64,000 nt of DNA from Pandoraea anhela (GTDB lineage: Bacteria; Pseudomonadota; Gammaproteobacteria; Burkholderiales; Burkholderiaceae): NCBI RefSeq assembly GCF_902459655.1, contig NZ_CABPSB010000016.1, positions 79,350-143,349 of the forward strand, read 5' to 3'. Positions 12,412 to 29,023 of this stretch are shown in pieces. The notes beneath the pieces are model-generated. The model saw nothing but the letters and a program-made list of their open reading frames with translations. It was not told the DNA's origin and made no database searches. The stretch's first letter is position 1, and each line of letters opens with the position of its first letter. A program made the position numbers and the translations under genes.

Positions 12412-13287
12412 GTGGACGAAGCGATTCGAATCGAGCGACTGACCAAGACTTTCGGCAGCGGCCGTCGTGCACTGGATGAGGTGGCGCTCAAGGTCATGCC
12501 GGGCGAAATGGTCGCCCTGATCGGCGCTTCCGGCTCGGGCAAGTCGACGCTGATGCGGCACATCGCCGGCTTCGTCGCGGCCGATCTTCAGCCGGGCAGC
12601 ATCGAGATTCTCGGTCGTCCGATCCAGCGCGATGGCCGCATCGTGCGCGAAGTGCGTCAGATTCGCCGCGACATCGGGTTCGTCTTCCAGCAATTCAACC
12701 TCGTGGGGCGTCTGCCGGTCATCACCAACGTGCTGACGGGTTTGCTCGCCCGTGTGCCGCTGTGGCGCAGCCTGCTGTTTCGCTTCACCCCGGCCGAGCG
12801 TCAGGCCGCGCTGACGGCGCTGGCCGAAGTCGGTATCGGCGATCTGGCGTTCCAACGTGCCAGCACGCTCTCCGGTGGCCAGCAGCAGCGCGCGGCGCTG
12901 GCCCGCACGCTCGTGCAGGGCGCCAGGATCATTCTCGCGGACGAACCGATTGCGTCGCTCGACCCGGAGTCGGCGCGCAAGGTGATGGACATGCTCGCGC
13001 GCATGAACCGCGATCACAAGCTGACTGTCGTCGTGTCGCTGCATCAGGTGGACGTGGCCATGCGCTATTGCGTGCGCACCGTTGCGCTGCATCAGGGGCG
13101 TGTGGTGTACGACGGCCCGTCTTCGGCGCTCACGCCCGACGTGTTGCGTCGCTTGTACGGCGTGCAGGCGAGCGAGTTGCTCAACGAGTCGTCGGACGAG
13201 GCGGAAGGCGCCGTCGGCGACGCGAGCGCGAAGCCGGCTGAGGCCGAAGCGCCGTTCCTGACCTCGATGTCGCTGAGCCTGACCTGA
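12412..13287 (+). CDS. phnC: Phosphonate ABC transporter ATP-binding protein
   Basis: ATPase of the PhnCDE phosphonate importer on the cytoplasmic face. 291 residues from a GTG preceded by AGGTGA; no ATG is available in the N-terminal region. Walker [10 protein letters not shown] (residues ~39-47), Q-loop [12 protein letters not shown], signature [15 protein letters not shown], Walker [14 protein letters not shown], and switch His in VSLHQVDVA. The family-specific [14 protein letters not shown] stretch is present. The last ~35 residues are an acidic Ala/Glu-rich tail not found in E. coli PhnC (262 residues). First gene of phnCDE, behind the Pho box at 12251. Confidence 0.94.
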
Positions 13288-13411
13288 GCCCCGCGCTGCG
13301 TGGGGTTCCGTTGCGTCGCATGCCGTCTTGATCCGTCTCAAGCCGCATCTGCCTAAACCCGCTTCACCTAAGCCTTTGCCAAAGGCCTTATCTGACCAGG
13401 AGCTTGCTCTC

Positions 13412-14380
13412 ATGAAACTGTGGAAAACCCTGCTGGCCGGCGTGGCCATGATCGCCTCGGTGGCGGCGGCGCACGCGCAGGAAATCAATTTCGGCATCAT
13501 CTCGACCGACTCCAGCGCTGCGCTGCGTCAACGCTGGCAGCCGTTGATCGACGATATGGAGAAGCAAACGGGTCTGAAGGTGACGCCGTTCTTCGCGACC
13601 GACTACGCCGGCGTGATCGAAGGCATGCGCTTCAACAAGGTGCAGCTCGCGTGGATGGGGAACAAGGGCGCGATGGAAGCGGTCGACCGCTCGAACGGCG
13701 AAATCTTCGCGAAGATCATCAACGCCGACGGCTCGGAAGGCTACTACTCGCTGTTGATCTCGAACGTATCGAGCCCGTACAAGACGCTCGACGACGTGAT
13801 CAAGAACGGCAAGAAGATCAATTTCGGTCTGGGCGACCCGACTTCGACGTCGGGCACGCTGGTGCCGGGTTACTACGTGTTCGCGAAGAACAACATCGAT
13901 CCGCGCACGTACTTCAAGACGGCACGCAGCTCGAACCACGGCGCGAACATGATGGCCGTGATCAACAATCAGGTCGACGTGGCCACGAACAACACCGAAG
14001 AACTGGCCAAGATCCAGCAAACGCAGCCGGAGAAGGCCAAGCAGGTCCACGTGATCTGGAAGTCGCCGCTGATCCCGTCGGATCCGTTGCTGTGGCGCAA
14101 GGACATGCCCGACGCCACGAAGAAGAAGGTGCGCGACTTCTTCCTGTCGTACGGCAAGGACGCACACGAAAAGGAAGTGCTGAAGAACATCTACAACTAC
14201 GGTGGCTTCCGCCCGTCGTCGGACGCGCAGCTCCTGCCGATCCGTCAGCTCGAACTCTTCAAGCAGAGGGTGCAGCTTGAGTCGGACACGACGCTCGACG
14301 CGGACAAGAAGAAGACGCAAATGGCCGACATCGACAGCAAGCTCGCAGCCCTCGACCAGCAACTGAACAAGACGAAGTAA
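13412..14380 (+). CDS. phnD: Phosphonate-binding periplasmic protein
   Basis: Solute receptor of the PhnCDE importer. 322 residues from [10 protein letters not shown]. Sec signal peptide with predicted cleavage AHA|Q after residue 22, then a type-II periplasmic-binding fold: [54 protein letters not shown], and the ligand-loop region [25 protein letters not shown] stands upstream of the chosen ATG; an earlier in-frame start would destroy the signal peptide. Lies 124 bp after phnC and 155 bp before phnE. Confidence 0.95.
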
Positions 14381-14535
14381 GGCGGTCGTGTCGGCATGGG
14401 CGAAGTCGAGCCTGTGACCGACGTTCGCCGTTGATGCAAGCGATGGCGGTTCCGGCAGACCGGGATCGCCGTCTCCTCAGCCGTTCGATTTCCCCACCGG
14501 CCGCTGCCGTGCCGGTACGACTCGTGGTACTCGAC

Positions 14536-15342
14536 ATGAACACCAGCGCATCTATCACTGCCAACGGCCGACTGCCGGGCGAGCCGCCCAAGCGTTCGTG
14601 GCTCTCCCTGATCAGTTGGGGCGTCTTCTTTCTGGTCCTGGTGTGGTCGTGGAGCGGCGCCGATATGCGCCCGCTCGACCTGATTCGCGATTCCGGCAAC
14701 ATGAGCCAGTTCGCGCACGATTTCTTCCCGCCCGACTTCCGTGATTGGCGGGTGTACTTCCACGAGATGATGGTGACGATTCATATCGCCGTCTGGGGCA
14801 CGGTCCTCGCGGTGGTGTGTTCGATCCCGATGGGCTTGCTCTCGGCGTCGAACATGGTGCCGGCGTGGGTCTACCAGCCGGTGCGTCGTGTCATGGACGC
14901 GTGTCGCGCGATCAACGAGATGGTGTTTGCGATGCTCTTCATCGTGGCCGTCGGTCTCGGCCCGTTCGCGGGCGTGCTGGCCTTGTGGGTTCATACGACT
15001 GGCACGCTCTCGAAGCTCTTCGCCGAAGCGGTCGAGGCGATCGATCCGCGTCCGGTCGAAGGCGTGCGGGCCACGGGCGCCCGCGCCATCGACGAAATCC
15101 TCTACGGCGTGCTGCAGCAGGTAATGCCGCTGTGGATTTCTTACACGCTGTACCGCTTCGAGTCGAACGTACGTTCGGCGTCGGTGGTCGGCATGGTCGG
15201 TGCGGGCGGCATCGGCGTGGTGCTCTACGAGGTGATTCGCAGCTTCCAGTACGCACAGACGTGCGCGGTCATGGTGATCATGGTGATCGTGGTGACGTGT
15301 ATCGACGTCTTCTCGGCGCGAGTGCGCAAGTTGGTGATCTGA
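14536..15342 (+). CDS. phnE: Phosphonate ABC transporter permease
   Basis: Inner-membrane channel subunit of PhnCDE. 268 residues from [11 protein letters not shown]. Membrane segments include [64 protein letters not shown] and [18 protein letters not shown]. The EAA coupling loop is [24 protein letters not shown]. Alternative in-frame starts upstream (from 14434) would add an Arg/Pro-rich stretch unlike a permease N-terminus. Single-domain PhnE; there is no second permease gene in this cluster. Terminators follow at 15406 and 15506. Confidence 0.93.
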
Positions 15343-15553: not shown

Positions 15554-16699
15554 TCAGGCGATCCGCTGCCCGACCCGATACGTCTCACGTGGAATCGGCG
15601 GCATGCCGTGGCGGGTGGCCACGCGCACCAGGTCGGCGCGCAGGCCCGGTCTGATGCCGCCGCGATCCGTCAGGCCCGCCGACTGCGCCGGGTTCCACGA
15701 CACCGTACGCATGGCTTTCGATAGCGTCCAGCCGCAGTCGGCATGATCGTTATGCAACTGGAACGCCGCTTGCAGCAGACTCGCCGGCACATAGTCCGAC
15801 GACAGAATGTCCAGCACGTCTTCACGTGCCAGCTCGGCCGCCGCCACATTGCCCGAGTGCGAACCGCCGCGCACGACATTCGGCGCGCCCATGATCACGC
15901 CGATCGACTTCTCGTGCGCGGCGCGTGCCGCCACCAGTGTCGTCGGAAACTCCGACAGCGCCACACCGTCGCGCTCGGCTTCCTCCACATGTTCGCGCGA
16001 CGTATCGTCGTGGCTTGCGAGCGGCAGGCCGCGCGCGCGGCTCATCTCCACGATGCTGCGGCGATGCGGAATGGCGTACTTCTCCTGCTGTGCTTTCAGA
16101 TCGGCGAGCATCGCTTCCCACTGCGCGTCCGGCACCTTGCCGTTGCGCTCGTGATACTGACGATGCAACACCGGGTCGTGCCACTGCCGCTGCCCCGGCG
16201 TGTGATCCATTACCGAGACCAGACGCAGCAACGGGTGATCGCACATCTCGGCGAACGTGTCGGCCGCGTCCTGCGTGGCGATTTCGCAGCGCAAATGCAG
16301 AAAGTGATCCGCACGGAAAAGCCCGGCGGCGATGGTGTCGAGCAACGCCTGACCGCATTCGGCCTGCACCTTGCGGCTGCGCAGACCCGACGCGTCGCGC
16401 TCGCCGATCACCAGCGAGTCGAACACGGTGGTGATGCCGGCGGCGGCGACCTGCGCATCGTGAATCGCGAAGGCGGCGTGTGTGTTCCAGTGCACGCCGG
16501 GACGCGGCGCCAGATGCTTCTCCAGGTTGTCGGTGTGCAACTCGACCAGACCCGGCACCAGATAGTCGCCCTCCCAGTCGACGGCCTCGGCGGCCTGCGT
16601 CGTGCCTTCCTCCACAGCGTGGATGAGACCCTCGCGCACTTCGACCACACCCGTGAAGGTAGTGTCGGGTGTGACGATGCGGGCGTTCTTGATAAGCAT
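15554..16699 (-). CDS. phnM: Alpha-D-ribose 1-methylphosphonate 5-triphosphate diphosphatase
   Basis: Removes pyrophosphate from ribosyl-alkylphosphonate triphosphate, giving the PhnJ substrate. 381 residues from MLIKNARIVTPDTTF, an amidohydrolase-superfamily enzyme. Metal-site motifs: VELHTDNLEKH near residue 55, HLRCEIA, SVMDHTPGQRQ and LASHDDTSREH; the distal SGNVAAAELAREDVLDILSSDYVPAS carries the conserved aspartate. GGAG lies 7 nt before the ATG, and phnL ends 16 bp upstream. Last gene of phnGHIJKLM. Confidence 0.95.
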   Translation of the reverse strand: MLIKNARIVTPDTTFTGVVEVREGLIHAVEEGTTQAAEAVDWEGDYLVPGLVELHTDNLEKHLAPRPGVHWNTHAAFAIHDAQVAAAGITTVFDSLVIGERDASGLRSRKVQAECGQALLDTIAAGLFRADHFLHLRCEIATQDAADTFAEMCDHPLLRLVSVMDHTPGQRQWHDPVLHRQYHERNGKVPDAQWEAMLADLKAQQEKYAIPHRRSIVEMSRARGLPLASHDDTSREHVEEAERDGVALSEFPTTLVAARAAHEKSIGVIMGAPNVVRGGSHSGNVAAAELAREDVLDILSSDYVPASLLQAAFQLHNDHADCGWTLSKAMRTVSWNPAQSAGLTDRGGIRPGLRADLVRVATRHGMPPIPRETYRVGQRIA

Positions 16700-16715
16700 G
16701 GACAAACTCCGGGAA

Positions 16716-17504
16716 TCAATGAGCGGGACGAAGCACGGGGCGCATGGCGAGCGTGCGCGTCGCCACTTCGTCGCGAGTCGCCTCGTCATGGAAGATGCCG
16801 ACGATGGCGCTACCCGCCGCGCGGGCTTCGGTAATCAATTGCGAGACCACGGCGCGGTTCTGCGCATCGAGCGACGCGGTCGGCTCGTCGAGCAGCAGCA
16901 CCGGCGCTGCGGCAATCAGCCCGCGCGCGATGTTGATGCGCTGTTGCTCGCCGCCCGAGAACGTCGCCGGCGCGAGTGCCCAGAGACGCTCGGGAATGTT
17001 CAGACGCGCGAGCAGGTCGCGCGCGCGTCCGGCCGCATCGGCCTCGCTGTGGCCAAGGCGACGCAGCGGCTCCGCCACGATGTCCAGCGTGGTCACACGC
17101 GGGATCACACGCAGGAACTGACTGACGTAACCGAGCGTCGTGCGACGCACGGACAGCACTTCGCGTGCGGTGGCCGTCGTGATGTCGATCCAGCGCTCGC
17201 CGTCGCCAGCATCGTGACGGATCTCGATGCGCCCCTCGCCGGCGAGATAGTTGCCGTACAGACAACGCAGCAAGGTGCTCTTGCCCGAGCCGGAGGGGCC
17301 CACGAGCGCAACGCATTCCCCGCGTCGCACCGTCAGATCGATACCTTCGAGCGCCGGAATCGCCGCGCCGCCCTGAGCGTGCAGACGGAAGGTCTTGTGC
17401 AAGCCCTGCGCCCGCAGCATGACGTCGTCCTCTCGGGTGCCGAGCGTGAGCGCCGCGCCGCCGATGGACGTCGAAGACGTAGTGAGTGGAGTTCCGGAGT
17501 TCAT
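16716..17504 (-). CDS. phnL: C-P lyase complex ABC-type subunit PhnL
   Basis: ABC-type ATPase that associates with the C-P lyase core complex rather than with a membrane transporter. 262 residues from [10 protein letters not shown], overlapping phnK by 4 bp (ATGA). Walker [10 protein letters not shown], signature [15 protein letters not shown], Walker [13 protein letters not shown]. The first ~30 residues are not conserved; a later ATG inside them could also be used. The longer in-frame extension to 18008 lies inside phnK and is a shadow. Confidence 0.94.
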
Positions 17505-18316
17505 ACGGGCAGCACCGAGGAAACCAGCAATTGCGTATAGGGATGTTGGGGGTCGTCGAGGACCTGATCGGTCAGCCCGGCCTCGACCACGCGCCCTGCC
17601 TGCATGACGATCAGGCGGTGCGCGATGAGTCGCGCCACGCCGATATCGTGCGTGACGATAATGGCGGCAAGATGAAGGCGCTCCACCAGCGAGCGCAGCA
17701 GGTCGAGCAGGCGTGCCTGCACCGACACATCGAGACCCGCGGTCGGCTCGTCCATGAATACCAGACGCGGCGCCGTCACCAGATTGCGCGCGATTTGCAG
17801 ACGCTGCTGCATCCCGCCGGAAAACGCGCCGGGCATCTCGTCCACGCGTGCCGGATCGAGTTCGACCTGCGCCATCCAGTGACGCGCCTTCTCGCGAATG
17901 TCGCCGAAATGACGCGCGCCGACCGCCATCAGACGGTCGCCGATGTTGCCGCCGGCCGAGACGTTCATGCGCAGGCCGTCGCGCGGATTCTGTTCGACGA
18001 AACCCCACTCGGTACGCAGCAGGCGGCGCTTGTGCGCTTCGTCCAGCGCGCAGAGATCGTGCATCGTGCCGTCGATGCCGCGATAGTGCAGCGAGCCCGC
18101 GTCGATTTCATGGCGCAGCGCGAGCGCGTTCAGCAGCGTCGACTTGCCCGAGCCGGATTCGCCCACGACACACACCACTTCGCCCGGCCACAGGTCGAAC
18201 GTCACGTCGGCGCAACCGATGCGATCGCCGTAATGCTTGCCGAGACCGGCCACGCGCAGCAGCGGCTCGTTCATTGGCGCAACGGCACGCTGTGCCGTGT
18301 CAGTGACCGCGTTCAT
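17501..18316 (-). CDS. phnK: C-P lyase complex ABC-type subunit PhnK
   Basis: ABC-type ATPase that binds PhnJ in the C-P lyase core complex. 271 residues from MNAVTDTAQ, which overlaps the phnJ stop by 4 bp (ATGA). Walker [10 protein letters not shown], signature [15 protein letters not shown], Walker [13 protein letters not shown], switch [10 protein letters not shown]; the oligopeptide-transporter-like C-terminus [16 protein letters not shown] is characteristic of PhnK. About 16 residues longer at the N-terminus than the E. coli protein; MNEPLLRV 16 residues in is an alternative start. Confidence 0.94.
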
Positions 18317-19287
18317 GCGTTCTCCTTCGCTGCATTCGCTGCACTCGATGCGCTCGGTGTTTTCGCGGCATGCGCGACTTCGGCCATGCTGGCCGAGGCC
18401 CGCTCGCCGCAGTAATCGCTGTCCGAGCACACGTACATGCGGGTGCCGTGGTCGTCGGTGATGACTTCATCGAGGAAGCTGTCGGTCGCGCCGCACAGGG
18501 CACAATGCGCGTCCCACTTCTGGATCTCGAACGGGTGATCGTCGAAGTCGAGACTCTCGACCGACGTGTACGGCGGAATGGCGTACAGACGTCGCTCGCG
18601 TCCCGCGCCGAAGAGTTGCAGCGCCGGGTTCATGTGCAGCTTGGGGTTGTCGAATTTCGGAATCGGGGACGGCGACATGAGATAGCGTCCGTTGACGATC
18701 ACCGGGTAGTCGTACGTCGTGGCGATCGCGCCGTGGCGCACGATGTCTTCATAAAGACGCACGCGCATGAGGCCGTATTCGCCGAGTGCGTGCAGCTTGC
18801 GCGACTCGTGAATGCGCGGCTCCAGGCGATACATCGGTTCGGGCATCGGCACCTGAAACACGAGGATCTGACCGTCGTGCAGCGAGGCTTCGGGAATGCG
18901 GTGACGGGTCTGGATGACGGTGGCCTCCGACGTCTTCGTCGTGGTGGCGACACCGGCCGTGCGCGCGAAAAAGCGTCGGATATTGACGGCATTGGTCGTG
19001 TCGTCCGCGCCCTGGTCGATCACCTTGAGCGTATCGTGCGCGCCGATCACGGCGGCGCTGACCTGAATGCCGCCCGTGCCCCAGCCGTAAGGCAGCGGCA
19101 TCTCACGACTCCCGAACGGCACCTGATAACCCGGAATCGCCACGGCCTTGAGCAGGCTGCGGCGAATCATGCGCTTGGTGTGTTCGTCGAGGAACGCGAA
19201 GTTGTAGCCGTCGGTGGTGGCGGCAGTTGCCGCCGTGGTCGACCCGGCGGCGCCGGGCGTGTCGTGCAACGTGGCGGCGTCGTTCAT
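18313..19287 (-). CDS. phnJ: Alpha-D-ribose 1-methylphosphonate 5-phosphate C-P-lyase
   Basis: Radical-SAM enzyme that breaks the carbon-phosphorus bond and releases ribosyl 1,2-cyclic phosphate. 324 residues. Cysteines at about 262, 265, 287 and 293 (C-X2-C-X21-C-X5-C) have the same spacing as the four conserved cysteines of E. coli PhnJ. The glycyl-radical/substrate region PYGWGTGGIQ is at ~67-75. The N-terminal ~25 residues (Ala/Thr repeats) and the C-terminal ~25 (Ala/Ser-rich) extend beyond the E. coli protein. Overlaps phnI and phnK by 4 bp each. Confidence 0.96.
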   Translation of the reverse strand: MNDAATLHDTPGAAGSTTAATAATTDGYNFAFLDEHTKRMIRRSLLKAVAIPGYQVPFGSREMPLPYGWGTGGIQVSAAVIGAHDTLKVIDQGADDTTNAVNIRRFFARTAGVATTTKTSEATVIQTRHRIPEASLHDGQILVFQVPMPEPMYRLEPRIHESRKLHALGEYGLMRVRLYEDIVRHGAIATTYDYPVIVNGRYLMSPSPIPKFDNPKLHMNPALQLFGAGRERRLYAIPPYTSVESLDFDDHPFEIQKWDAHCALCGATDSFLDEVITDDHGTRMYVCSDSDYCGERASASMAEVAHAAKTPSASSAANAAKENA

Positions 19288-20591
19288 GCTGCCTCCTGAG
19301 TGTGCGGGACGGCAGCCGCCGTGGCGTCGCCCTTCCGCTGGGGTCCCTCGGCCGGCGTTTCTTCCGCGAGGGTGCCGTACTTCGCGCCGTACTTCGCGGC
19401 ATGCTCCGCGCGCAGACGGCGCACCAGTTCCAGCTCGGCCTGAAAGTCGACGTAATGCGGCAACTTCAGGTGCTGCACGAAGCCCGACGCCTCGACGTTG
19501 TCGCTGTGATACAGCACGAATTCCTGCTGCTGAGCGGGCGAGTTCGCTTCGTCGCCCAATTCCTTCGTGCGCAGTGCACGGTCGACGAGCGACATCGCCA
19601 TCGCCTTGCGTTCGTTGTGCCCGAACGCCAGTCCGTAGCCCTGCGTGAATTGCGGCGGGGTTGCCTGATTGCCGCCGAACTGCGTGACCATCTGACACTC
19701 CGTCACCGCGATCTCGCCGATATCGATGGCGAAGCCGAGTTCTTCCGGTTCGATCTCGATGGAGACCTGTCCGAGGCGAATCTCGCCTGCGAACGGGTGA
19801 TCGTTACCGTAGCCGCGCTGTGTCGAGTAGCCGAGCGCGAGCAGGAAACCCTCGTCGCCGCGTGCGAGGTTCTGTAGACGTGCCGTGCGCGAGGCCGGCG
19901 TGAAGAGCGGTGAGTGCACGAGGTCGTGCGGCTCGGGATCGCTGCTGTCGGTGCTCAGCGCTTCGAGCAGACCGTCGCGCTTCATGATGTCGGTGATGCG
20001 CGTGGTGGCCGCGATGGGCGGCACGTCGGGAATGTCCGGGGTGCCGACCGTAGCGGCTGGCGTTGCTGCCTTCGGCTCGGTTGCCTCGGTTGCCTTGGTT
20101 GCGTTGGTTGTGTTGGTTGTGGCTGGCGTCGATGCCGGCGTGCCGGTCGTTTCCCCCGGCAGCGAATCGTCCGCCGTCTCGCCTTCGGCAAGCAGGGCGA
20201 AGTCGAGCAGGCGCTGCGTATAGTCGTACGTGGCGCCCAGCACCTGACCGCCGGGCACGTCCTTGAACGTGGCGGAGATGCGGCGCGACAGACGCATGGC
20301 GGCCGTATCGAGCGGTTTCGTGGTGCCCAGACGCGGCAGCGTCGTGCGATACGCGCGCAGCAGGAAGATCGCTTCGACGAGGTCGCCCGACGCCTGCTTG
20401 ATCGCCAGCGCCGCAAGCGTTTCGTCGTACAACGCGCCTTCGCTCATCACGCGCGAAACGGCGAGGCGCATCTGCTCGCGGATTTGTGCGACGGTGAGCG
20501 CGGGGACGTCGGGATTGCCGCGTCGCGCTTTGGCGAGCAGATCCCACGATTGTTCGATGGCGCGCTCGCCACCTTTGACTGCGACGTACAT
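19284..20591 (-). CDS. phnI: C-P lyase core subunit PhnI (carries a low-complexity insertion)
   Basis: Catalytic subunit for coupling ATP-ribose to phosphonate in the PhnGHIJ core. 435 residues against about 354 in E. coli. MYVAVKGGERAIEQSWDLL starts the protein, and the end ...LKLPHYVDFQAELELVRRLRAEH is well conserved. Much of the extra length is an Ala/Thr/Asn-rich linker (about residues 155-195) between SLPGE and RITDIMKRDGLLEAL, encoded over 20078-20122 by a degenerate 9-bp tandem repeat; another ~25 residues extend the C-terminus. The start overlaps the phnH stop (TGATG). In-frame TTG at 20597 is a less likely start. Confidence 0.94.
   Translation of the reverse strand: MYVAVKGGERAIEQSWDLLAKARRGNPDVPALTVAQIREQMRLAVSRVMSEGALYDETLAALAIKQASGDLVEAIFLLRAYRTTLPRLGTTKPLDTAAMRLSRRISATFKDVPGGQVLGATYDYTQRLLDFALLAEGETADDSLPGETTGTPASTPATTNTTNATKATEATEPKAATPAATVGTPDIPDVPPIAATTRITDIMKRDGLLEALSTDSSDPEPHDLVHSPLFTPASRTARLQNLARGDEGFLLALGYSTQRGYGNDHPFAGEIRLGQVSIEIEPEELGFAIDIGEIAVTECQMVTQFGGNQATPPQFTQGYGLAFGHNERKAMAMSLVDRALRTKELGDEANSPAQQQEFVLYHSDNVEASGFVQHLKLPHYVDFQAELELVRRLRAEHAAKYGAKYGTLAEETPAEGPQRKGDATAAAVPHTQEAA
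20078..20122. repeat. 9-bp tandem repeat within phnI
   Basis: Five adjoining 9-bp units on the plus strand: cggttgcct, cggttgcct, tggttgcgt, tggttgtgt, tggttgtgg. They encode a three-residue periodic Thr/Ala-Thr-Asn/Lys/Glu stretch inside the PhnI insertion. Units differ at 1-3 positions, so this looks aged rather than freshly expanded. Confidence 0.8.
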
Positions 20592-21235
20592 CAGCAAACC
20601 TCCACGTGCGTGGTGCGCGGCAACCCGAGCACCGAGTCGCCTGCGGCGATCAGCAGATCGAGGCCGGCGGGAAAGCGCGGCGCGAGGGCGGCGCGCGCCT
20701 GCCAGAAGGCGGCCGACAGACCGCCCACGGTGATCTCCGCATGCGTCCGGATACCAGGGCCGCGCAGGCGCAGACGCAGCGCACCGTCGTGCGTATCGCC
20801 CTCATGGCCTTCGCAAAGCGTGGGCACATCGACGATCAGCGTGGCGCTGTTCTCGGGCGATTCGGCCGTGCCGAAGGCGAAGCGCTCCAGCGCCGGGCAG
20901 TTGACGGGATCGGTGAGCAGTGCGAACTGCGCCGTCGCCAGACCGGCGTCGCCGCCGAGCAGCGGCGCGCCGGTGTGAAAGCGCAGCGCACTCGAGACTT
21001 CGCCGAGCGGCGCTTGCAGCCACACCGGCGTGGTGGCGTCCGCCAGCGCGAGGAGAATGGCGCGTGCGGCAATGCTGGCTTCATCGCTATGCGCGAGCCG
21101 TCTCCCCACACTGCGCAACTGACCGGGGCGCGCGAGGGCCTCGAGCACGGCACGGAAGACGCCCTGGGCGTCGTGGACCGGATCGTCGAAACCGGGTTGC
21201 AGATCCGACCAGTCGGGAATCGTTGCCGTCGGCAT
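20591..21235 (-). CDS. phnH: C-P lyase core subunit PhnH
   Basis: Member of the PhnGHIJ core complex; a structural PLP-transferase-like fold without PLP in E. coli. 214 residues. Conserved PGFDDPVHDAQGVFRAVLEALARPG at the N-terminus, FHTGAPL centrally, LRLRGPGI, and RFPAGLDLLIAAGDSVLGLPRTTHVE at the C-terminus. It abuts phnG with no gap (TGA directly followed by ATG) and overlaps the phnI start. Confidence 0.94.
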   Translation of the reverse strand: MPTATIPDWSDLQPGFDDPVHDAQGVFRAVLEALARPGQLRSVGRRLAHSDEASIAARAILLALADATTPVWLQAPLGEVSSALRFHTGAPLLGGDAGLATAQFALLTDPVNCPALERFAFGTAESPENSATLIVDVPTLCEGHEGDTHDGALRLRLRGPGIRTHAEITVGGLSAAFWQARAALAPRFPAGLDLLIAAGDSVLGLPRTTHVEVC

Positions 21236-21727
21236 TCAGGCCTCCCGGACCATGGTGAAGAATTCGACGCGGCTCGCGGCCGCATCGGCGTCGTTCTGTG
21301 CTGCGCTGGCCGCCAGACGTCGAGCGATCGCCGTGAGCGGACCGGCGGCGAGCACGTTGCGGTGCTGCGGCATCTGCATGAGCGCGTCCAGACGCGCGAC
21401 GCGCGCCGCACGCTCGGCGTCGCGGCCGAGCACATAACCCGTGCCCACCACGCCGTCCTGCTGCCGCAGCGTGCAGCGCGTGACGGTCGTCTCGCCGAGG
21501 TTGAAGCGGTCGCCGCTACCGCCTACGCGGCCCTGCACCAGCACGAGGCCGGTCTGCGGTGCACGCAGCCAGAGGAATCGCGGCGCGTCGGGGCAACGGG
21601 CGATGGCGTCGTCGAGTTCGTCGCGCGTGGCGCGCGCAAACACCGCAAGCCACTTGGCGCGGTCGGCCTTGTGCTGCGGGGCGCCGCCGTCCTCGTCGCG
21701 TGTTGTGTCGGAAGATAGGATTGGCAT
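21236..21727 (-). CDS. phnG: C-P lyase core subunit PhnG
   Basis: Member of the PhnGHIJ core complex. 163 residues; WLAVFARATRDEL, the core QTGLVLVQGRVGGSGDRFNLGE, YVLGRDAERAARVARLDALMQ and the C-terminal VEFFTMVREA match the family. The first ~24 residues (MPILSSDTTRDED...) are not conserved, and no good Shine-Dalgarno precedes this ATG, so a later start is possible. First gene of phnGHIJKLM; the PhnF operator pair lies immediately upstream (21732-21747). Confidence 0.92.
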   Translation of the reverse strand: MPILSSDTTRDEDGGAPQHKADRAKWLAVFARATRDELDDAIARCPDAPRFLWLRAPQTGLVLVQGRVGGSGDRFNLGETTVTRCTLRQQDGVVGTGYVLGRDAERAARVARLDALMQMPQHRNVLAAGPLTAIARRLAASAAQNDADAAASRVEFFTMVREA

Positions 21728-21729
21728 AA

Positions 21730-21758
21730 TTGTCTAGTCGTATAGACGTGTGTATGAT
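21730..21758 (+). promoter_or_regulatory. phnF promoter overlapped by tandem PhnF operators
   Basis: A -35-like TTGTCT (21730-21735) and a -10 TATGAT (21753-21758) are spaced by 17 bp and point toward phnF. Two abutting 8-bp elements, GTCTAGTC (21732-21739) and GTATAGAC (21740-21747), match the GntR/HutC-family consensus GTMTAKAC at 7/8 and 8/8. They cover the -35 and spacer and lie 5 bp from the phnG start codon, so PhnF bound here could repress both divergent units. Confidence 0.7.
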
Positions 21759-21820
21759 CGCAATACGTGCAGTGAGGAAGAACTCGCGACCTCATTACAA
21801 CTTTGCGGGGTGTCAATTTG

Positions 21821-22582
21821 ATGACAGCACAACTCGAACGCGGTGGCGGTGTTGCCGTCTGGCGGCAGATTGCGCAGATTCTGGCAACGGAGATCGGTGA
21901 GCGCCGATACGGCGAAGGCTTGCCGGACGACCGTCTGCCAAGCGAGACCGATCTCGCCGTGAGGTTCGGCGTGAACCGGCATACCGTGCGTCGCGCGATT
22001 CTCGGGCTGGCCGAGCAGGGACTGGTCAACGTCGAACACGGTCGGGGTACGTTCGTGCAGCCGGCCGCGATCGGCTATGTGATCGGACGCCGCACCCGTT
22101 TCACCGAAAACCTCTCGCAGAACCATCTCAAGACGGCGCAGCAGATCATTTCGGCGCACAAGCTCAAGGCCGAGGGCAGCGTTGCGCACGCACTGGGCCT
22201 GCGTGTGGGGGCGCCCGTCTATCGCGTGGAACTGGCGCGTCGCAGTCTCGACCCGCAAGGTATCGAACTGCCGCTCGCTTACAGCGAGAACTGGTTTCCG
22301 GCGACGCGCTTTCCCGATTTCCCCGACGTCTTCTCGCAGCACGAATCGATCAGCGCTGCGCTCGCCGTGTTCGGCGTGCACGATTACACGCGTCGCGAGA
22401 GCCGCATCGGCGCACGTATGCCAGACGCCGACATCGCGCGCCACCTTGGGATCAACCGTCAGCAACCCGTGCTCAGCGTGGAGAGTACCGATGTGGACGA
22501 AGCGGGCAAGCCGATCAAGTACGGCATCGCCTACTTCCCGGCGGACCGTATGCAACTCGTGGTGCAGGGGGAGACGCAATGA
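21821..22582 (+). CDS. phnF: Phosphonate metabolism transcriptional regulator PhnF (GntR/HutC family)
   Basis: DNA-binding repressor of phosphonate genes. 253 residues from MTAQLERGGG; a TTG at 21803 is an alternative start. GntR winged HTH (WRQIAQILATEIGERRYGEGLPDDRLPSETDLAVRFGVNRHTVRRAILGL, residues ~12-65) and the GRGTFV wing precede a UTRA ligand domain (~95-250) with RVELARRSLDPQGIELPLAYSENWFP. Overlaps the next gene by 4 bp (ATGA). The operator-like pair upstream overlaps its own promoter, implying autoregulation. Confidence 0.93.
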   Translation: MTAQLERGGGVAVWRQIAQILATEIGERRYGEGLPDDRLPSETDLAVRFGVNRHTVRRAILGLAEQGLVNVEHGRGTFVQPAAIGYVIGRRTRFTENLSQNHLKTAQQIISAHKLKAEGSVAHALGLRVGAPVYRVELARRSLDPQGIELPLAYSENWFPATRFPDFPDVFSQHESISAALAVFGVHDYTRRESRIGARMPDADIARHLGINRQQPVLSVESTDVDEAGKPIKYGIAYFPADRMQLVVQGETQ

Positions 22583-23346
22583 GCGGCATGCACGGCATCA
22601 ATGACGTGGACCGACGGGCATTCGACCTGAACGTCGCGCGCTTCGCGATCTATTACGCACCGCCGTCGGACGCTTGCTGGTGGAACGAAGGCAGCCGCTG
22701 GCTGGGACGCGACGCGATGACCGGTGTCGAACGGCAGGCGCCGAGCGTGCCCGGGCTGTCGCGAGCATTGCACGACCTGACGACAGATCCGCGTCGCTAT
22801 GGGTTGCACGCTACGCTCAAAGCGCCGATGCGTCTCGCACCGCAGGCGACGCTAAGCGATCTAATGGGTATCGCGACGGCCGTTGCGGCCCGTCACGCGC
22901 CGTTCGATCTCGTGGTGCATACGGACGTGATCGGCACGGAGAAGGGCACGCGTGCGGGCTTCGTGGCGTTGCGCCCGGAAGCCGGCGCCGCCGACGAAAA
23001 CGCCGTCAACGCCCTTGCCGCCGATTGTGTGGTGGCGTTCGACACCTTGCGCGCGCCGCTCACCGAGGCCGAACTCGCCAGACGAAACCCGCAGTGGCTG
23101 ACATCGAGGCAACGCGAGTGCCTCGCCCAATGGGGCTATCCGTATGTGTTCGAGGAATTTCGTTTTCACGTGACGCTGTCGGATCGCGTCGATGCGGCCG
23201 ACGCCACCGTCATCACCGATTGGTGGCGACCGCGCGTGCAGGCGCTCGGACCGATGCGCGTCGACAGTCTCGCCGTCTTCGTCCAGCCGACGCCCGGCGA
23301 ACCCTTCCACGTCTTCGACCGTTTCGCGTTCGGGAAAGCCGCATGA
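22579..23346 (+). CDS. DUF1045 2H-phosphoesterase-like phosphonate metabolism protein
   Basis: 255 residues of the DUF1045 / putative phosphonate metabolism protein family. Two H-x-T-phi motifs, HATL at residues 77-80 and HVTL at 197-200, are those of the 2H phosphoesterase superfamily, whose members open cyclic phosphates. It is fused by 4-bp ATGA overlaps to phnF before it and phnN after it. No phnP (the metallo-beta-lactamase-fold ribosyl 1,2-cyclic phosphodiesterase) occurs in this locus, so this protein may do that step between PhnJ and PhnN. That role is inference; the family assignment and motifs are seen. Confidence 0.88.
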   Translation: MSGMHGINDVDRRAFDLNVARFAIYYAPPSDACWWNEGSRWLGRDAMTGVERQAPSVPGLSRALHDLTTDPRRYGLHATLKAPMRLAPQATLSDLMGIATAVAARHAPFDLVVHTDVIGTEKGTRAGFVALRPEAGAADENAVNALAADCVVAFDTLRAPLTEAELARRNPQWLTSRQRECLAQWGYPYVFEEFRFHVTLSDRVDAADATVITDWWRPRVQALGPMRVDSLAVFVQPTPGEPFHVFDRFAFGKAA

Positions 23347-23915
23347 ATCACGCACGTCTTTACTACGTGATGGGGCCGTCCGGCGCGGGCAAGGACGCGT
23401 TGCTCGCGTATGCGCGTGCGCGGCTGGACGGCGCCTCGCCGGGCGGTGCGCCGGTGCTCTTCGCGCATCGTTACATCACGCGGGCGCCGTCGCAGGGCGA
23501 GAACCACATCGCGCTGTCGCACGGGGAGTTCGCCCTGCGCCATTCGCTCGGATGCTTCGCACTCGACTGGGACAGCCACGATTGCCGCTATGGCATCGGT
23601 ATCGAGATCGATGCATGGCTGAGCGCCGGGGCGCACGTCGTCGTGAATGGCTCGCGCGCGTTTCTCGCCCAGGTCGTCGCGCGCTATGGCGAACGGCTGC
23701 ATCTGGTGGAAATTCGCGTCGATCCGGAGGTCAGGGCGATGCGTCTGGCCAATCGCGGACGCGAAACCGGTGACGCACTCGACAAACGCGTCGCGCACAA
23801 CGTGTCGTGGACGCCGCCCGACGGCATTGCGCTGACGGTCGTCAACAACGACGGTGCGCTGGCCGAGGCGGGGGAGCGCCTTGTCTCGTTACTGACGATG
23901 CAGGCCGCCGCCTGA
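23343..23915 (+). CDS. phnN: Ribose 1,5-bisphosphate phosphokinase
   Basis: Phosphorylates ribose 1,5-bisphosphate to PRPP, the last step of ribosyl recycling in the C-P lyase pathway. 190 residues from MNHARLYYVM. P-loop GPSGAGKD at 11-18, the guanylate-kinase-like RYITRAPSQGENHIALSHGEF segment, and VVNGSRAFLAQ. Overlaps the DUF1045 gene by 4 bp; longer in-frame extension upstream is a shadow within that gene. Last gene of the phnF operon; no obvious terminator hairpin follows. Confidence 0.94.
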   Translation: MNHARLYYVMGPSGAGKDALLAYARARLDGASPGGAPVLFAHRYITRAPSQGENHIALSHGEFALRHSLGCFALDWDSHDCRYGIGIEIDAWLSAGAHVVVNGSRAFLAQVVARYGERLHLVEIRVDPEVRAMRLANRGRETGDALDKRVAHNVSWTPPDGIALTVVNNDGALAEAGERLVSLLTMQAAA

Positions 23916-24289
23916 TATCGGAGCGGCTACCGGGGGGAGCGGGGGAGAGGGAGAGCGCGGGCAGAAGGGGGCGAGGGAGCGGGGAAATGGAATGGGGCGA
24001 TGCCTGTCAGCCGGGCATGCGGCTCGGGCATGTGGGTGGTGCATGTGGGAGGTATGACGCGCCTGGAGCGTCGATAGCACCTGATGCGCCTTGGACGCCC
24101 GGAGCACGTGTCACATACACGTAAGACCTCCGTATGAATGTTGCGTTGTGTGTCGTTATTTTGCAAATTATTGCAAATGACGCATACTTTGCGTAATCTT
24201 CACGTCACTGCATACGACATCCCCCGACCGGCGCGCTGCGACGTCATGTGTCGCTCAGCCGCCGGCGCGGACTCATCCCGGAGCCCCTC
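23916..24289. other. Intergenic region between phnN and the flavoprotein gene
   Basis: 374 bp. The first part is a purine-rich G/A tract (about 23931-23990) without structure. The second part is AT-richer and includes a direct repeat of TTGCAAAT spaced 2 bp apart (24161-24178), followed by ACTTTGCG. This looks like the promoter/operator of the flavoprotein gene. No Pho box is seen here. Confidence 0.6.
24161..24180 (+). promoter_or_regulatory. Direct-repeat operator candidate
   Basis: TTGCAAATTA and TTGCAAATGA lie end to end, a 10-bp direct repeat about 110 bp before the flavoprotein start. One helical turn between copies would put two protein subunits on the same DNA face. No regulator gene is adjacent, so the binding protein is unknown. 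Confidence 0.45.
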
Positions 24290-26779
24290 ATGTCCTCAGC
24301 CTTGCCCACTCATGCCCGCGTCGTCGTCATCGGCGGCGGGATCGTTGGTTGTTCGGTGGCTTATCACCTCGCCAAACTCGGTTGGACGGACGTCGTGCTG
24401 CTGGAGCAGGGGCAGTTATCGTGCGGCACCACGTGGCATGCGGCAGGCCTGGTCGGTCAACTGCGTTCGCAAGAAAGCATGACCAGGCTCATCCGTTATT
24501 CCACGAAGCTCTACAGCGAACTGGAAGCGGAGACGGGGCTGGGCACGGGGTGGAAGCCATGTGGTTCGCTGTCGGTGGCGCGCAGCCGCGAGCGCATGAC
24601 GCAACTCAAGCGCACGGCGGCGGTGGCGCGGGCTTATGGCGTGCAGTGCGATGTGATTTCGCCGCGTGAAGCCGGCGAGCTCTGGCCGGTCATGCGCACG
24701 GACGATCTCGTCGGCGCCGTCTGGCTGCCGGGGGACGGCAAGGCGAATCCGACCGACCTCACGCAGGCGCTGGCGCGCGGTGCGCGCAGCCGTGGCGTGC
24801 GCATTGCCGAGAACACGCGCATCACGCAGATTCATACGGCTTCGCCGAACGGCGTTCCGACGGCGACCGGCGTGTCCTGGCGCAACAAGGACGGCGAGCG
24901 CGGACGTATCGACGCCGAGATCGTCGTCAACTGCGCGGGGCAGTGGGCGAAGGCCGTGGGCCGCATGTGCGGCGTGAGCGTGCCGCTGCATTCGGCCGAG
25001 CATTACTACATCGTGACGGAGCGAATCCCGGGCGTGCACACCGACTTGCCGGTCATGCGCGATCCGGACGGCTACATCTACTTCAAGGAAGAAGTCGGCG
25101 GTCTCGTGATGGGCGGCTTCGAGCCGAACGCCAAACCATGGGGCATGAACGGCATTCCCGAGAATTTCGAGTTCCAACTGCTGCCCGACGACTGGGACCA
25201 GTTCGAGATCCTGATGGAGAACGCGCTGATGCGCGTGCCGGCGCTGGAAACCGCACAGATTCGCCAGTTCTATAACGGTCCGGAATCGTTCACGCCAGAC
25301 AACAATTTCATCCTCGGCGAAGCGCCCGAGCTGCGCCATTTCTATGTCGGGGCCGGCTTCAACTCGATGGGCATCGCCTCGGCCGGCGGGGCGGGCATGG
25401 CGCTCGCGGAGTGGATCGTCGCCGGCGAGCCGACCATGGATCTCTGGCCCGTCGACATTCGTCGCTTTGCGGGCTTCAACGGTAACGACACATGGCTGCA
25501 CGATCGCGTGAAGGAGACGTTGGGGCTGCACTACGCCATGCCGTGGCCGAATCGCGAACTGGATACGGCGCGGCCGTTCCGCCGCTCGCCGCTCTATGCG
25601 ACGTTGCTTGCCAAGGGGGCCTGTTTCGGCAGCAAGATGGGATGGGAGCGGCCGAACTTCTTTGCGCCGTCGCCCGCGCAGGCGACGATCGAGTACAGCT
25701 TCGGGCAACAGAACTGGCACGCATGGAGCGGTGCAGAACATCGGGCTTGCCGCGAGGCCGTGGCGCTGTTCGACATGAGTTCGTTCTCGAAGCTGCTTGT
25801 CAAAGGCTGCGACGCCGAGCGCGTATTGCAGACGTTGTGCAGTAACGATGTCGCGGTCCCGCCGGGACGCACGGTCTACACCGGCATGCTCAACGAACGG
25901 GGCGGCTACGAATCGGATTTCACGCTCACGCGGCTTGCGCCGGATCAGTATCTGCTGGTGACAGGATCGGCGCAGACCACGCGCGACATGGACTATCTCG
26001 AGCGACACATCGCCGGCATGTCCGACGATCCGCGCTGCACTGTGGTGGACGTCACCGGTCAGTACGCCGTACTGGCGCTCATGGGGCCGAACGCTCGTGC
26101 GCTGTTGCAGCAAGTCTCGAAGGCCGACTTCTCCAACGAGGCGTTCCCTTTCGGCACGAGTCGCGAAATCGATCTCGGCTATGCGACGGTGCGCGCAACG
26201 CGCCTGACCTACGTGGGCGAACTCGGCTGGGAGCTGTATGTGCCGGTCGAATTCGCCGTAGGCGTCTACGAGACGCTGCACGCGGCAGGCGCGGCGTTCG
26301 GACTGAAGGACGCGGGCTATTACGCCATCGACTCGTTGCGCATCGAGAAAGGGTATCGCGCGTGGGGGCGCGAACTGACGCCCGACACGAATCCCGTCGA
26401 AGCAGGGCTCACGTTCGCATGCAAACTCGCGAGCGGCATCCCGTTCACGGGACGCGCGGCCGTGGAACTGGCCCGCGCCAACGGGGCAAGGCGCCGGCTC
26501 GTGAGCGTGGTGCTCGACGGGGCCGGCGACAAAATGCTCTGGGGCGGCGAAGCGGTGTTGCGCGACGGGCAACCGGTCGGCTTCATCTCCTCGGCGGCGT
26601 TCGGCCACACCCTCGACGCGCCCGTCGGTCTGGCGTTTCTCACGAATCCGGATGGGCCGGTGACGGCAGACTACGTCGACGCCGGCCGTTATCAGATCGA
26701 TCTTGCCGGGGAACGGCTCGACGCACGGGTGCAATTGCGCGCGTTGTATGACCCGAAGGGGGAGCGCGTGAAGGCATAG
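24290..26779 (+). CDS. Sarcosine/dimethylglycine dehydrogenase-like FAD protein with GcvT domain
   Basis: 829 residues. An N-terminal DAO domain with FAD-binding VVVIGGGIVGCSVAYHLAKLG (residues ~9-30) and the GTTWHAAGLVGQLR segment where FAD is covalently held by the adjacent His in relatives; then an FAO_M linker; then GCV_T (EYSFGQQNWHAWSGAEHRACREAVALFDMSSFSK, from ~480) and GCV_T_C folate-binding domains. Family members demethylate dimethylglycine or sarcosine and pass the methyl carbon to tetrahydrofolate. GGAG precedes the chosen ATG. Adjacent purU and the C-P lyase genes make N-methylglycine derived from phosphonates a plausible substrate, which is inference. Confidence 0.87.
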   Translation: MSSALPTHARVVVIGGGIVGCSVAYHLAKLGWTDVVLLEQGQLSCGTTWHAAGLVGQLRSQESMTRLIRYSTKLYSELEAETGLGTGWKPCGSLSVARSRERMTQLKRTAAVARAYGVQCDVISPREAGELWPVMRTDDLVGAVWLPGDGKANPTDLTQALARGARSRGVRIAENTRITQIHTASPNGVPTATGVSWRNKDGERGRIDAEIVVNCAGQWAKAVGRMCGVSVPLHSAEHYYIVTERIPGVHTDLPVMRDPDGYIYFKEEVGGLVMGGFEPNAKPWGMNGIPENFEFQLLPDDWDQFEILMENALMRVPALETAQIRQFYNGPESFTPDNNFILGEAPELRHFYVGAGFNSMGIASAGGAGMALAEWIVAGEPTMDLWPVDIRRFAGFNGNDTWLHDRVKETLGLHYAMPWPNRELDTARPFRRSPLYATLLAKGACFGSKMGWERPNFFAPSPAQATIEYSFGQQNWHAWSGAEHRACREAVALFDMSSFSKLLVKGCDAERVLQTLCSNDVAVPPGRTVYTGMLNERGGYESDFTLTRLAPDQYLLVTGSAQTTRDMDYLERHIAGMSDDPRCTVVDVTGQYAVLALMGPNARALLQQVSKADFSNEAFPFGTSREIDLGYATVRATRLTYVGELGWELYVPVEFAVGVYETLHAAGAAFGLKDAGYYAIDSLRIEKGYRAWGRELTPDTNPVEAGLTFACKLASGIPFTGRAAVELARANGARRRLVSVVLDGAGDKMLWGGEAVLRDGQPVGFISSAAFGHTLDAPVGLAFLTNPDGPVTADYVDAGRYQIDLAGERLDARVQLRALYDPKGERVKA

Positions 26780-27924: not shown

Positions 27925-28150
27925 GGCGAGATATCCCGGGAGAGACAGCGGTATCTCGTGGCGTTCGGCGTCGCACGTCTCACCGCGTAGGGTTGGGTTG
28001 TCTTACGTCACCTCAAGTCGCCTCAAGTCGCGCGGAGCCCGAACGAGCATTGCACGTGAGCCGGGATGCGGCGCAAGCGCCCCGGCCACACATCGAATTC
28101 ACGAATTTCAACACGGCAACGACATTGCAAGCCTTTGCCCAGGAGCAATC

Positions 28151-29023
28151 ATGGCACCGATCGAAAATAGCTACATTCTGAAATTGTCCTGCCCGGACCG
28201 TCCCGGCATCGTCCACACGGTGGCCGGTTTCCTGGTCGAGCGCGGCGGCAACATTCTCGACTCGGCGCAGTTCAACGATCGCTTCACGGGCGGGTTCTTC
28301 ATGCGTGTGCATTTCCAGCAATTGCCGGGGCAGACCGATCTGGAGACCTTGCAGCGTGATTTCGCGCCGCTCGCCGAGCAGTTCGACATGCAATGGGAAC
28401 TGGTCGACGCTTCGATCAGGCCGCGCGTTTTGCTCATGGTCTCGAAGATCGGCCATTGCCTGAACGATCTGTTGTTCCGCTACAAGACCGGCCAGCTCAA
28501 CATCGAAATCCCGGCGATCGTCTCGAATCACAAAGATTTCTATCAACTGGCGGCGAGTTACAACATCCCGTTCCATCACCTGCCGCTCATGAATGCGACG
28601 CCGGAATCCAAGGCGGCGCAGGAAGCGAAGGTGTTCGAACTCGTCGAGGACAACAACATCGATCTCGTGGTGCTCGCTCGTTACATGCAGGTGCTCTCGA
28701 GCGATCTGTGCAGGAAGCTCGCCGGCCGCGCGATCAATATCCATCACTCGTTCCTGCCGAGCTTCAAGGGCGCGAAGCCGTACTATCAGGCGTTCGACCG
28801 TGGTGTGAAGCTGATCGGGGCGACGGCGCATTACGTGACGTCCGATCTCGACGAAGGTCCCATCATCGAGCAGGAAGTCGAGCGGGTGGATCACACCATG
28901 GATCCGGAGCAACTGACCGCGATCGGTCGCGACGTGGAATGTGTGGCGCTGGCCCGCGCCGTGCGTTTCCACGCCGAGCACCGCATTCTGCTCAACGGCC
29001 ACAAGACGGTGATTTTCCGGTGA
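28151..29023 (+). CDS. purU: Formyltetrahydrofolate deformylase
   Basis: Hydrolyses 10-formyl-tetrahydrofolate to formate and tetrahydrofolate. 290 residues from MAPIENSYIL, with AGGAG 5 nt upstream. N-terminal ACT domain (LKLSCPDRPGIVHTVAGFLVERGGNILDS, ~10-80), then the formyltransferase fold with SNHKDFYQLAASYNIPFHHLP, LARYMQVLS, and the catalytic motif INIHHSFLPSFKGAKPY including conserved Asn, His and later Asp (THYVTSDLDEGPII-like segment). Its position near the GcvT-type demethylase suggests it balances one-carbon units from N-methyl oxidation, as in known sox-purU clusters. Confidence 0.95.
   Translation: MAPIENSYILKLSCPDRPGIVHTVAGFLVERGGNILDSAQFNDRFTGGFFMRVHFQQLPGQTDLETLQRDFAPLAEQFDMQWELVDASIRPRVLLMVSKIGHCLNDLLFRYKTGQLNIEIPAIVSNHKDFYQLAASYNIPFHHLPLMNATPESKAAQEAKVFELVEDNNIDLVVLARYMQVLSSDLCRKLAGRAINIHHSFLPSFKGAKPYYQAFDRGVKLIGATAHYVTSDLDEGPIIEQEVERVDHTMDPEQLTAIGRDVECVALARAVRFHAEHRILLNGHKTVIFR

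Follow-up and report, generated by a model that had tools for sequence, protein, structure and literature searches.

A DUF1045-family 2H phosphoesterase as the probable replacement of PhnP in a C-P lyase operon of Pandoraea anhela

How is 5-phosphoribosyl 1,2-cyclic phosphate (PRcP), the compound opened by PhnP, processed in a carbon-phosphorus (C-P) lyase operon that has no phnP? The question is raised by a 64,000-nucleotide stretch of the Pandoraea anhela genome (contig NZ_CABPSB010000016.1, positions 79,350 to 143,349; hereafter the window), in which a gene for a 255-amino acid protein of the DUF1045/TIGR03223 family (22579..23346, + strand) lies between phnF and phnN. We propose, with a probability of roughly 85%, that in this C-P lyase route the protein stands in the place of PhnP, as a phosphoribosyl cyclic phosphodiesterase. 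Its family, motifs, operon and predicted fold, the absence of PhnP, the pattern of exclusion between the two genes and a decayed PhnP homologue are observed here, and the substrate, the product and the roles of the residues are inferred. The replacement of PhnP by DUF1045 is not a new idea, since the hypothesis has been in print since 2013. New here are the extent of the survey, with the caveat of a single swap, the decayed PhnP homologue, a structural model matching an enzyme of ADP-ribose 1'',2''-cyclic phosphate (Appr>p), and genomes that carry DUF1045 and no lyase.

The 2013 paper proposed that RcsF, a 2H protein of clusters without phnP, probably takes over the work of PhnP (PMC3840354), and a later paper restates this for DUF1045 (PMC8235418). 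A review cites an older SEED survey in which, of 54 operons, 27 had PhnP and 16 had rcsF without PhnP (PMC10574752), and a phosphorus-stress table lists a DUF1045 protein alongside PhnI, J, L and M (PMC10132767). TIGR03223/DUF1045 is the RcsF of these phosphonate papers, which already give the family, the operon setting and the proposed role (PMC3840354, PMC8235418, PMC10574752). Nothing essential separates the window protein from the published RcsF; here the arrangement is phnF-DUF1045-phnN, with two 4-bp overlaps. The strongest printed evidence, on which the 2013 paper dwells little, is a complementation: a fosmid with rcsF and without phnP allowed growth on methylphosphonate of Escherichia coli BW16787, which has no phnP because phnHIJKLMNOP is deleted (PMC3840354).

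The window protein matched Pfam DUF1045 (PF06299; E=1e-48, 165.8 bits against a cut-off of 24.3) and is a member of NCBIfam TIGR03223, "putative phosphonate metabolism protein" (254.7 bits, cut-off 248.95). It also exceeded the cut-off of the 2H superfamily profile 2_5_RNA_ligase2 (PF13563; E=1e-6, 29.3 bits, cut-off 27). With LigT_PEase (PF02834) it scored 19.3 bits, under the cut-off of 23.3, which places it outside the LigT/ThpR subfamily. The source genome (6.05 Mb, 61 contigs) holds one DUF1045 copy; among the matches listed, the nearest named relative was that of P. capi (84% identity), and the next three were from Pandoraea. The first H-x-T motif, HATL, occupies residues 77-80 (22807..22818, +), and the second, HVTL, residues 197-200 (23167..23178, +), where the first-pass annotation had placed them. 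In 139 unique relatives (four sequences from a ureide locus, described below, were set aside) H77, T79 and H197 were invariant, and T199 was present in 133 and replaced by serine in the remaining 6. Since the H-x-T/S pair was thus intact in 139/139, a chance occurrence of the motifs was rejected. Between the motifs, residues 158-190 (23050..23148, +), with conserved R158, R169, W185, G186 and Y187, may form a substrate clamp, as judged from conservation and motif spacing. A phage or toxin setting for DUF1045 was also rejected, with no match among 50,697 phage records.

The confident AlphaFold model of the protein matches 2H enzymes such as the plant Appr>p enzyme; the RNA 2',3'-cyclic phosphodiesterases (LigT) and Usb1 are among its nearest folds. 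Together with the PF13563 match and the conserved motifs, the predicted fold bears out the assignment to the 2H phosphoesterases, first made from the motifs. The plant cyclic nucleotide phosphodiesterase (PDB 1fsi, 1jh6, 1jh7) acts on ADP-ribose 1'',2''-cyclic phosphate, whereas the substrate proposed for DUF1045 is 5-phosphoribosyl; the two share 10-12% identity, and the stretch between the motifs is longer in DUF1045. The motif spacing of E. coli ThpR (LigT) differs as well, being 82 against a median of 111 in the DUF1045 relatives.

On this basis, the DUF1045 protein would open the same cyclic sugar phosphate as PhnP, by a metal-free, two-histidine 2H mechanism. H77 and H197 would be the acid-base pair, T79 and T199 would hold the phosphate, and the conserved R21, Y74, R158, R169 and Y187 would be likely to hold the sugar and the 5-phosphate. 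PhnP (TIGR03307), for which the pathway step and proposed reaction are the same, is a metallo-beta-lactamase-fold enzyme with HxHxDH-type metal ligands; the DUF1045 protein has two H-x-T motifs, no such site and an unrelated, 2H fold in the predicted model, so that it is no member of the PhnP family.

A phnP concealed elsewhere in the source genome was rejected, since the top TIGR03307 score was just 15.8 bits against a cut-off of 272.25, and the gene therefore lies in a C-P lyase operon without phnP, the setting of TIGR03223/RcsF. We then surveyed 397 Pseudomonadota species genomes, counting PhnJ and PhnP over the model cut-off and DUF1045 as strong at E<1e-30. PhnJ was found in 103 genomes, PhnP in 25 and strong DUF1045 in 87. 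Among the 103 genomes with PhnJ, 76 carried DUF1045, 25 carried PhnP, none carried both and two (G320 and G323) carried neither; all 25 PhnP genomes had PhnJ. PhnJ was present in 76/87 genomes with DUF1045 and in 27/310 without it (raw counts, uncorrected for relatedness), and PhnN was kept in 74/76 genomes with DUF1045 and PhnJ and in 25/25 with PhnP. The first-pass annotation had predicted a non-orthologous replacement, with no phnP elsewhere in the genome and mutual exclusion of the two genes in operons; the PhnP search, the zero co-occurrence and the predicted 2H fold support this prediction, which was already in print.

As to the counts themselves, 112 genomes matched PhnP at E<=1e-12, and the 25 counted scored 296-433 bits; the remainder, at 108 bits or less, were left uncounted. 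A fragment under the cut-off (G040, 18.9 bits, internal stops) was removed from 104 PhnJ matches, and four weak matches (G180, G234, G349 and G317, none with PhnJ or PhnP) from 91 DUF1045 matches. For PhnN (cut-off 156) rows below 135 bits were dropped, and G387 (155.8) and G204 (135.1) were counted, which raised the number from 112 to 114. Ten genomes of family group f16 (G023, G058, G062, G127, G139, G198, G232, G244, G256 and G376) had PhnN over the cut-off and none of PhnJ, DUF1045 and PhnP.

The gene content around DUF1045 was examined within the flanks of named loci, the best 80 of at least 594 matched stretches; PhnP in these loci, and its homologues, were sought with L067 as query or with a profile built from the 25 PhnPs. 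PhnM was present in 75/80, PhnJ in 63/80, PhnN in 63/80 and a PhnP homologue in 1/80. The nearest recognised neighbour was PhnM in 45 and PhnN in 41, and the order F-DUF1045-N was found in 27/80. Hence, the tight coupling to phnN claimed for the window holds here, with its ATGA overlap, but is not universal, PhnN being missing from 2/76 genomes and PhnM being slightly more often the nearest neighbour.

Among the named loci only L183, from a gammaproteobacterial metagenome-assembled genome (MAG), carries both genes, in the order phnJ-K-L-M-DUF1045-phnN-phnP homologue; its only order-mate in the sample, G415, is arranged likewise. Both PhnP homologues are open frames, scoring 117 and 142 bits against the TIGR03307 cut-off of 272. 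Each retains the three zinc-site cysteines and 1/7 of the positions that, following structural work on PhnP, we take to be metal ligands; all seven are present in 25/25 true PhnPs. Both H-x-T motifs are intact in the DUF1045 proteins of L183 and G415. The plain reading of these sequences is that DUF1045 would have entered between phnM and phnN of a phnP-bearing operon, and that the phnP active site would have been lost afterwards. In a further 175 gammaproteobacterial genomes DUF1045 was found in five, one of them weak, and of the three strong genomes besides G414 that were checked for PhnP, only G415 had a homologue above 100 bits.

Several observations weigh against the proposal. In a quick tree of 70 PhnJ proteins, operons with DUF1045 and operons with PhnP are one change apart (SH-like approximate likelihood ratio test, SH-aLRT, 84), and the exclusion counts are therefore not independent. 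As read from this tree, they reflect a single swap that was then inherited, not many independent swaps, and the Fisher value for exclusion (p=6e-22) is for this reason not taken as significance. The operon ends at phnN in G320 and G323 (loci L137 and L138), which have neither PhnP nor DUF1045 by the models used and no phnP-like frame after phnN; because of these genomes, and of the two DUF1045 genomes without PhnN, the late step may be dispensable or served by something else. DUF1045 lay within 12 kb of PhnJ in 59/76 genomes, and farther away or on another contig in 17/76; PhnN was absent from 8 of the 11 genomes with DUF1045 and no PhnJ. The role of DUF1045 is hence not only that of feeding PhnN. 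The complementing fosmid is of ~40 kb, and other genes on it could be the source of the step. Our literature search, which was limited and did not cover key older papers, found no published assay of a DUF1045 enzyme on PRcP. Finally, with the window protein as query, phmmer found nothing in the PDB but an unrelated match (E=9.7), and hhalign gave no profile-profile match with E. coli ThpR (probability 1.5%). Profile searches of the PDB were weak: profile A1 reached 2d4g (E=0.022) and 2fyh (E=1.2), and profile A2 only 2fyh (E=0.94).

Only one family group, f2, contains both operon types, with PhnP in G312 and DUF1045 in G204 and G394. The mixture is accounted for by G312, whose operon is placed by the PhnJ tree as a very divergent PhnP-type operon and was probably acquired by transfer. 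DUF1045 is retained across 14 family groups.

What does DUF1045 do where there is no lyase? Strong DUF1045 without PhnJ was found in 11/397 genomes, with both motifs kept in 11/11. In three of them (G268, G355 and G393) phnM, DUF1045 and phnN stand together with no lyase core, and in G095 phnM and DUF1045 do. For 15 named loci that lack PhnJ in the flanks, a search of the whole records found PhnJ elsewhere in 11 and none in 4 (Paraburkholderia metrosideri, Undibacterium squillarum and two MAGs). The arrangement phnM-DUF1045-(phnN), without the C-P lyase core and with no PhnJ found in the genome, was seen at L139, L165, L147, L149, L142 and L179. Paraburkholderia loci (L164 to L170, L175 and L193) usually run M L K J I H G, F DUF1045 N. 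P. metrosideri LMG 28140 (L165) lacks everything from L to F and retains M, DUF1045 and N as open frames. The ratios of nonsynonymous to synonymous substitution (dN/dS, NG86 method) between P. metrosideri and seven relatives were 0.147-0.389 for DUF1045, 0.078-0.196 for PhnM and 0.107-0.283 for PhnN. Among the relatives they were 0.145-0.332, 0.05-0.346 and 0.083-0.374, so that P. metrosideri is about in range; these pairwise values, taken on stop-to-stop frames, do not separate retained function from recent loss. In the tree of DUF1045 proteins, unlinked copies intermingle with phn-linked ones; they have therefore moved or been left behind, and do not form a separate old family.

The lyase-free genomes may be relics. 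They also fit a clearing of PRcP formed without phosphonate, and PRcP arises by decay of phosphoribosyl pyrophosphate (PRPP). DUF1045 may thus have a second role, perhaps in the repair of decayed PRPP. It is conceivable, if rather unlikely, that DUF1045 is at heart a PRcP repair enzyme that returns this compound to PRPP with PhnN and perhaps PhnM, and that it was recruited by the C-P lyase operons of one lineage, in which PhnP then decayed. A repair role would explain the intact DUF1045 of the PhnJ-less genomes, three of them with phnM-DUF1045-phnN. It also fits the PRcP modelled in the core complex of E. coli when this was produced without phosphonate (PMC9947105).

A second DUF1045 paralogue occurs in the rhizobial family group f59 (L150, L151, L152, L153, L237, L238, L239 and L240). 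It adjoins what we take, from Pfam hits, to be MnmC-like halves, with a presumed PuuE/UraD-like ureide pair nearby in 7/8. The H-x-T motifs are lost in 6/8 and all eight form one clade (SH-aLRT 99), so this paralogue is putatively a pseudoenzyme.

The lyase-free genomes, the two PhnJ genomes with neither gene and the likeness of the model to LigT and Usb1 would also suit a 2H enzyme that acts on something else, for instance an RNA end or a nucleotide 2',3'-cyclic phosphate, and was fixed in these operons while some other host enzyme opens PRcP. We regard this as very unlikely, given the raw association of DUF1045 with PhnJ, its tight placing in operons, the loss of PhnP and the decayed state of the PhnP homologue in the loci that have both. 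Slightly less probable still is that DUF1045 cuts PRcP on the other side, yielding ribose 2,5-bisphosphate, or acts earlier, with PhnM, on a 5-triphosphate intermediate, and so is no strict analogue of PhnP. PhnM is a more frequent companion than PhnN in the named loci, and PhnM-DUF1045 pairs exist without PhnJ; however, nearly all genomes with DUF1045 and PhnJ keep PhnN, an enzyme that requires the 1,5-bisphosphate, and the plant Appr>p enzyme of the same fold is one that we take to yield the 1''-phosphate. Least probable is an accident of operon descent, in which DUF1045 is accessory to one lineage and PhnP was lost for another cause: it accords with the one change on the PhnJ tree, but is opposed by the long retention across family groups, by the invariance of both motifs outside the ureide locus and by the function of an rcsF cluster without phnP in phnP-deleted E. 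coli (PMC3840354).

The proposed replacement of PhnP by DUF1045 is set in an otherwise full operon, as the first-pass annotation had it: phnC to phnN were all identified, and both 4-bp overlaps could be read directly. On the + strand, the stop of phnF (21803..22582; TIGR02325, 231.5 bits), the regulator gene, overlaps the DUF1045 start in an ATGA (22579..22582), and the DUF1045 stop overlaps in another (23343..23346) the start of phnN, for ribose 1,5-bisphosphokinase (23343..23915; TIGR02322, 186.2 bits). The - strand carries phnG (21236..21727; TIGR03293, 152.2 bits), phnH (20591..21235; TIGR03292, 171.3 bits), phnI (19284..20597; PF05861, 5.2e-159) and phnJ, for C-P bond cleavage (18313..19287; PF06007, 1e-145). 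These are followed by phnK (17501..18430, open frame, match from residue 55; TIGR02323, 371.2 bits), phnL (16716..17363, scanned stretch, the gene starting somewhat upstream; TIGR02324, 303.4 bits) and phnM (15554..16789, open frame, match from about residue 30; TIGR02318, 450.3 bits, cut-off 390.55). The transporter genes lie on the + strand: phnC, the ATPase (12412..13287; TIGR02315, 287.9 bits), phnD, the phosphonate-binding protein (13328..14380; TIGR03431, 338 bits), and phnE, the permease (14524..15342; TIGR01097, 298 bits).

Between phnG and phnF, an imperfect palindrome, tgtctagtcgtatagacg (21731-21748), is a possible PhnF operator. On the 3' side of phnN are an 843-amino acid fusion of a flavin adenine dinucleotide (FAD) oxidoreductase and a GcvT domain, sarcosine/dimethylglycine dehydrogenase-like (24248-26779), and PurU (28139-29023). 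Cleavage of the C-P bond of glyphosate yields sarcosine, and these two proteins could use the methyl group of sarcosine so derived. A frame of 3309 amino acids (31696-41625, - strand) has 16 passenger-associated transport repeats and an ESPR signal-peptide region, and probably encodes an autotransporter.

If the proposed role of DUF1045 is true, one and the same reaction would be carried out by a metal-dependent and a metal-free enzyme of unrelated folds, within an otherwise conserved pathway that bears on marine methane and on the breakdown of glyphosate-like compounds. The decayed PhnP homologue and the lyase-free genomes offer two direct handles on this role, and on a possible second one. 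With proof of the role, DUF1045/TIGR03223 could be renamed, and the apparent gap in those C-P lyase operons that carry DUF1045 instead of PhnP would be closed.
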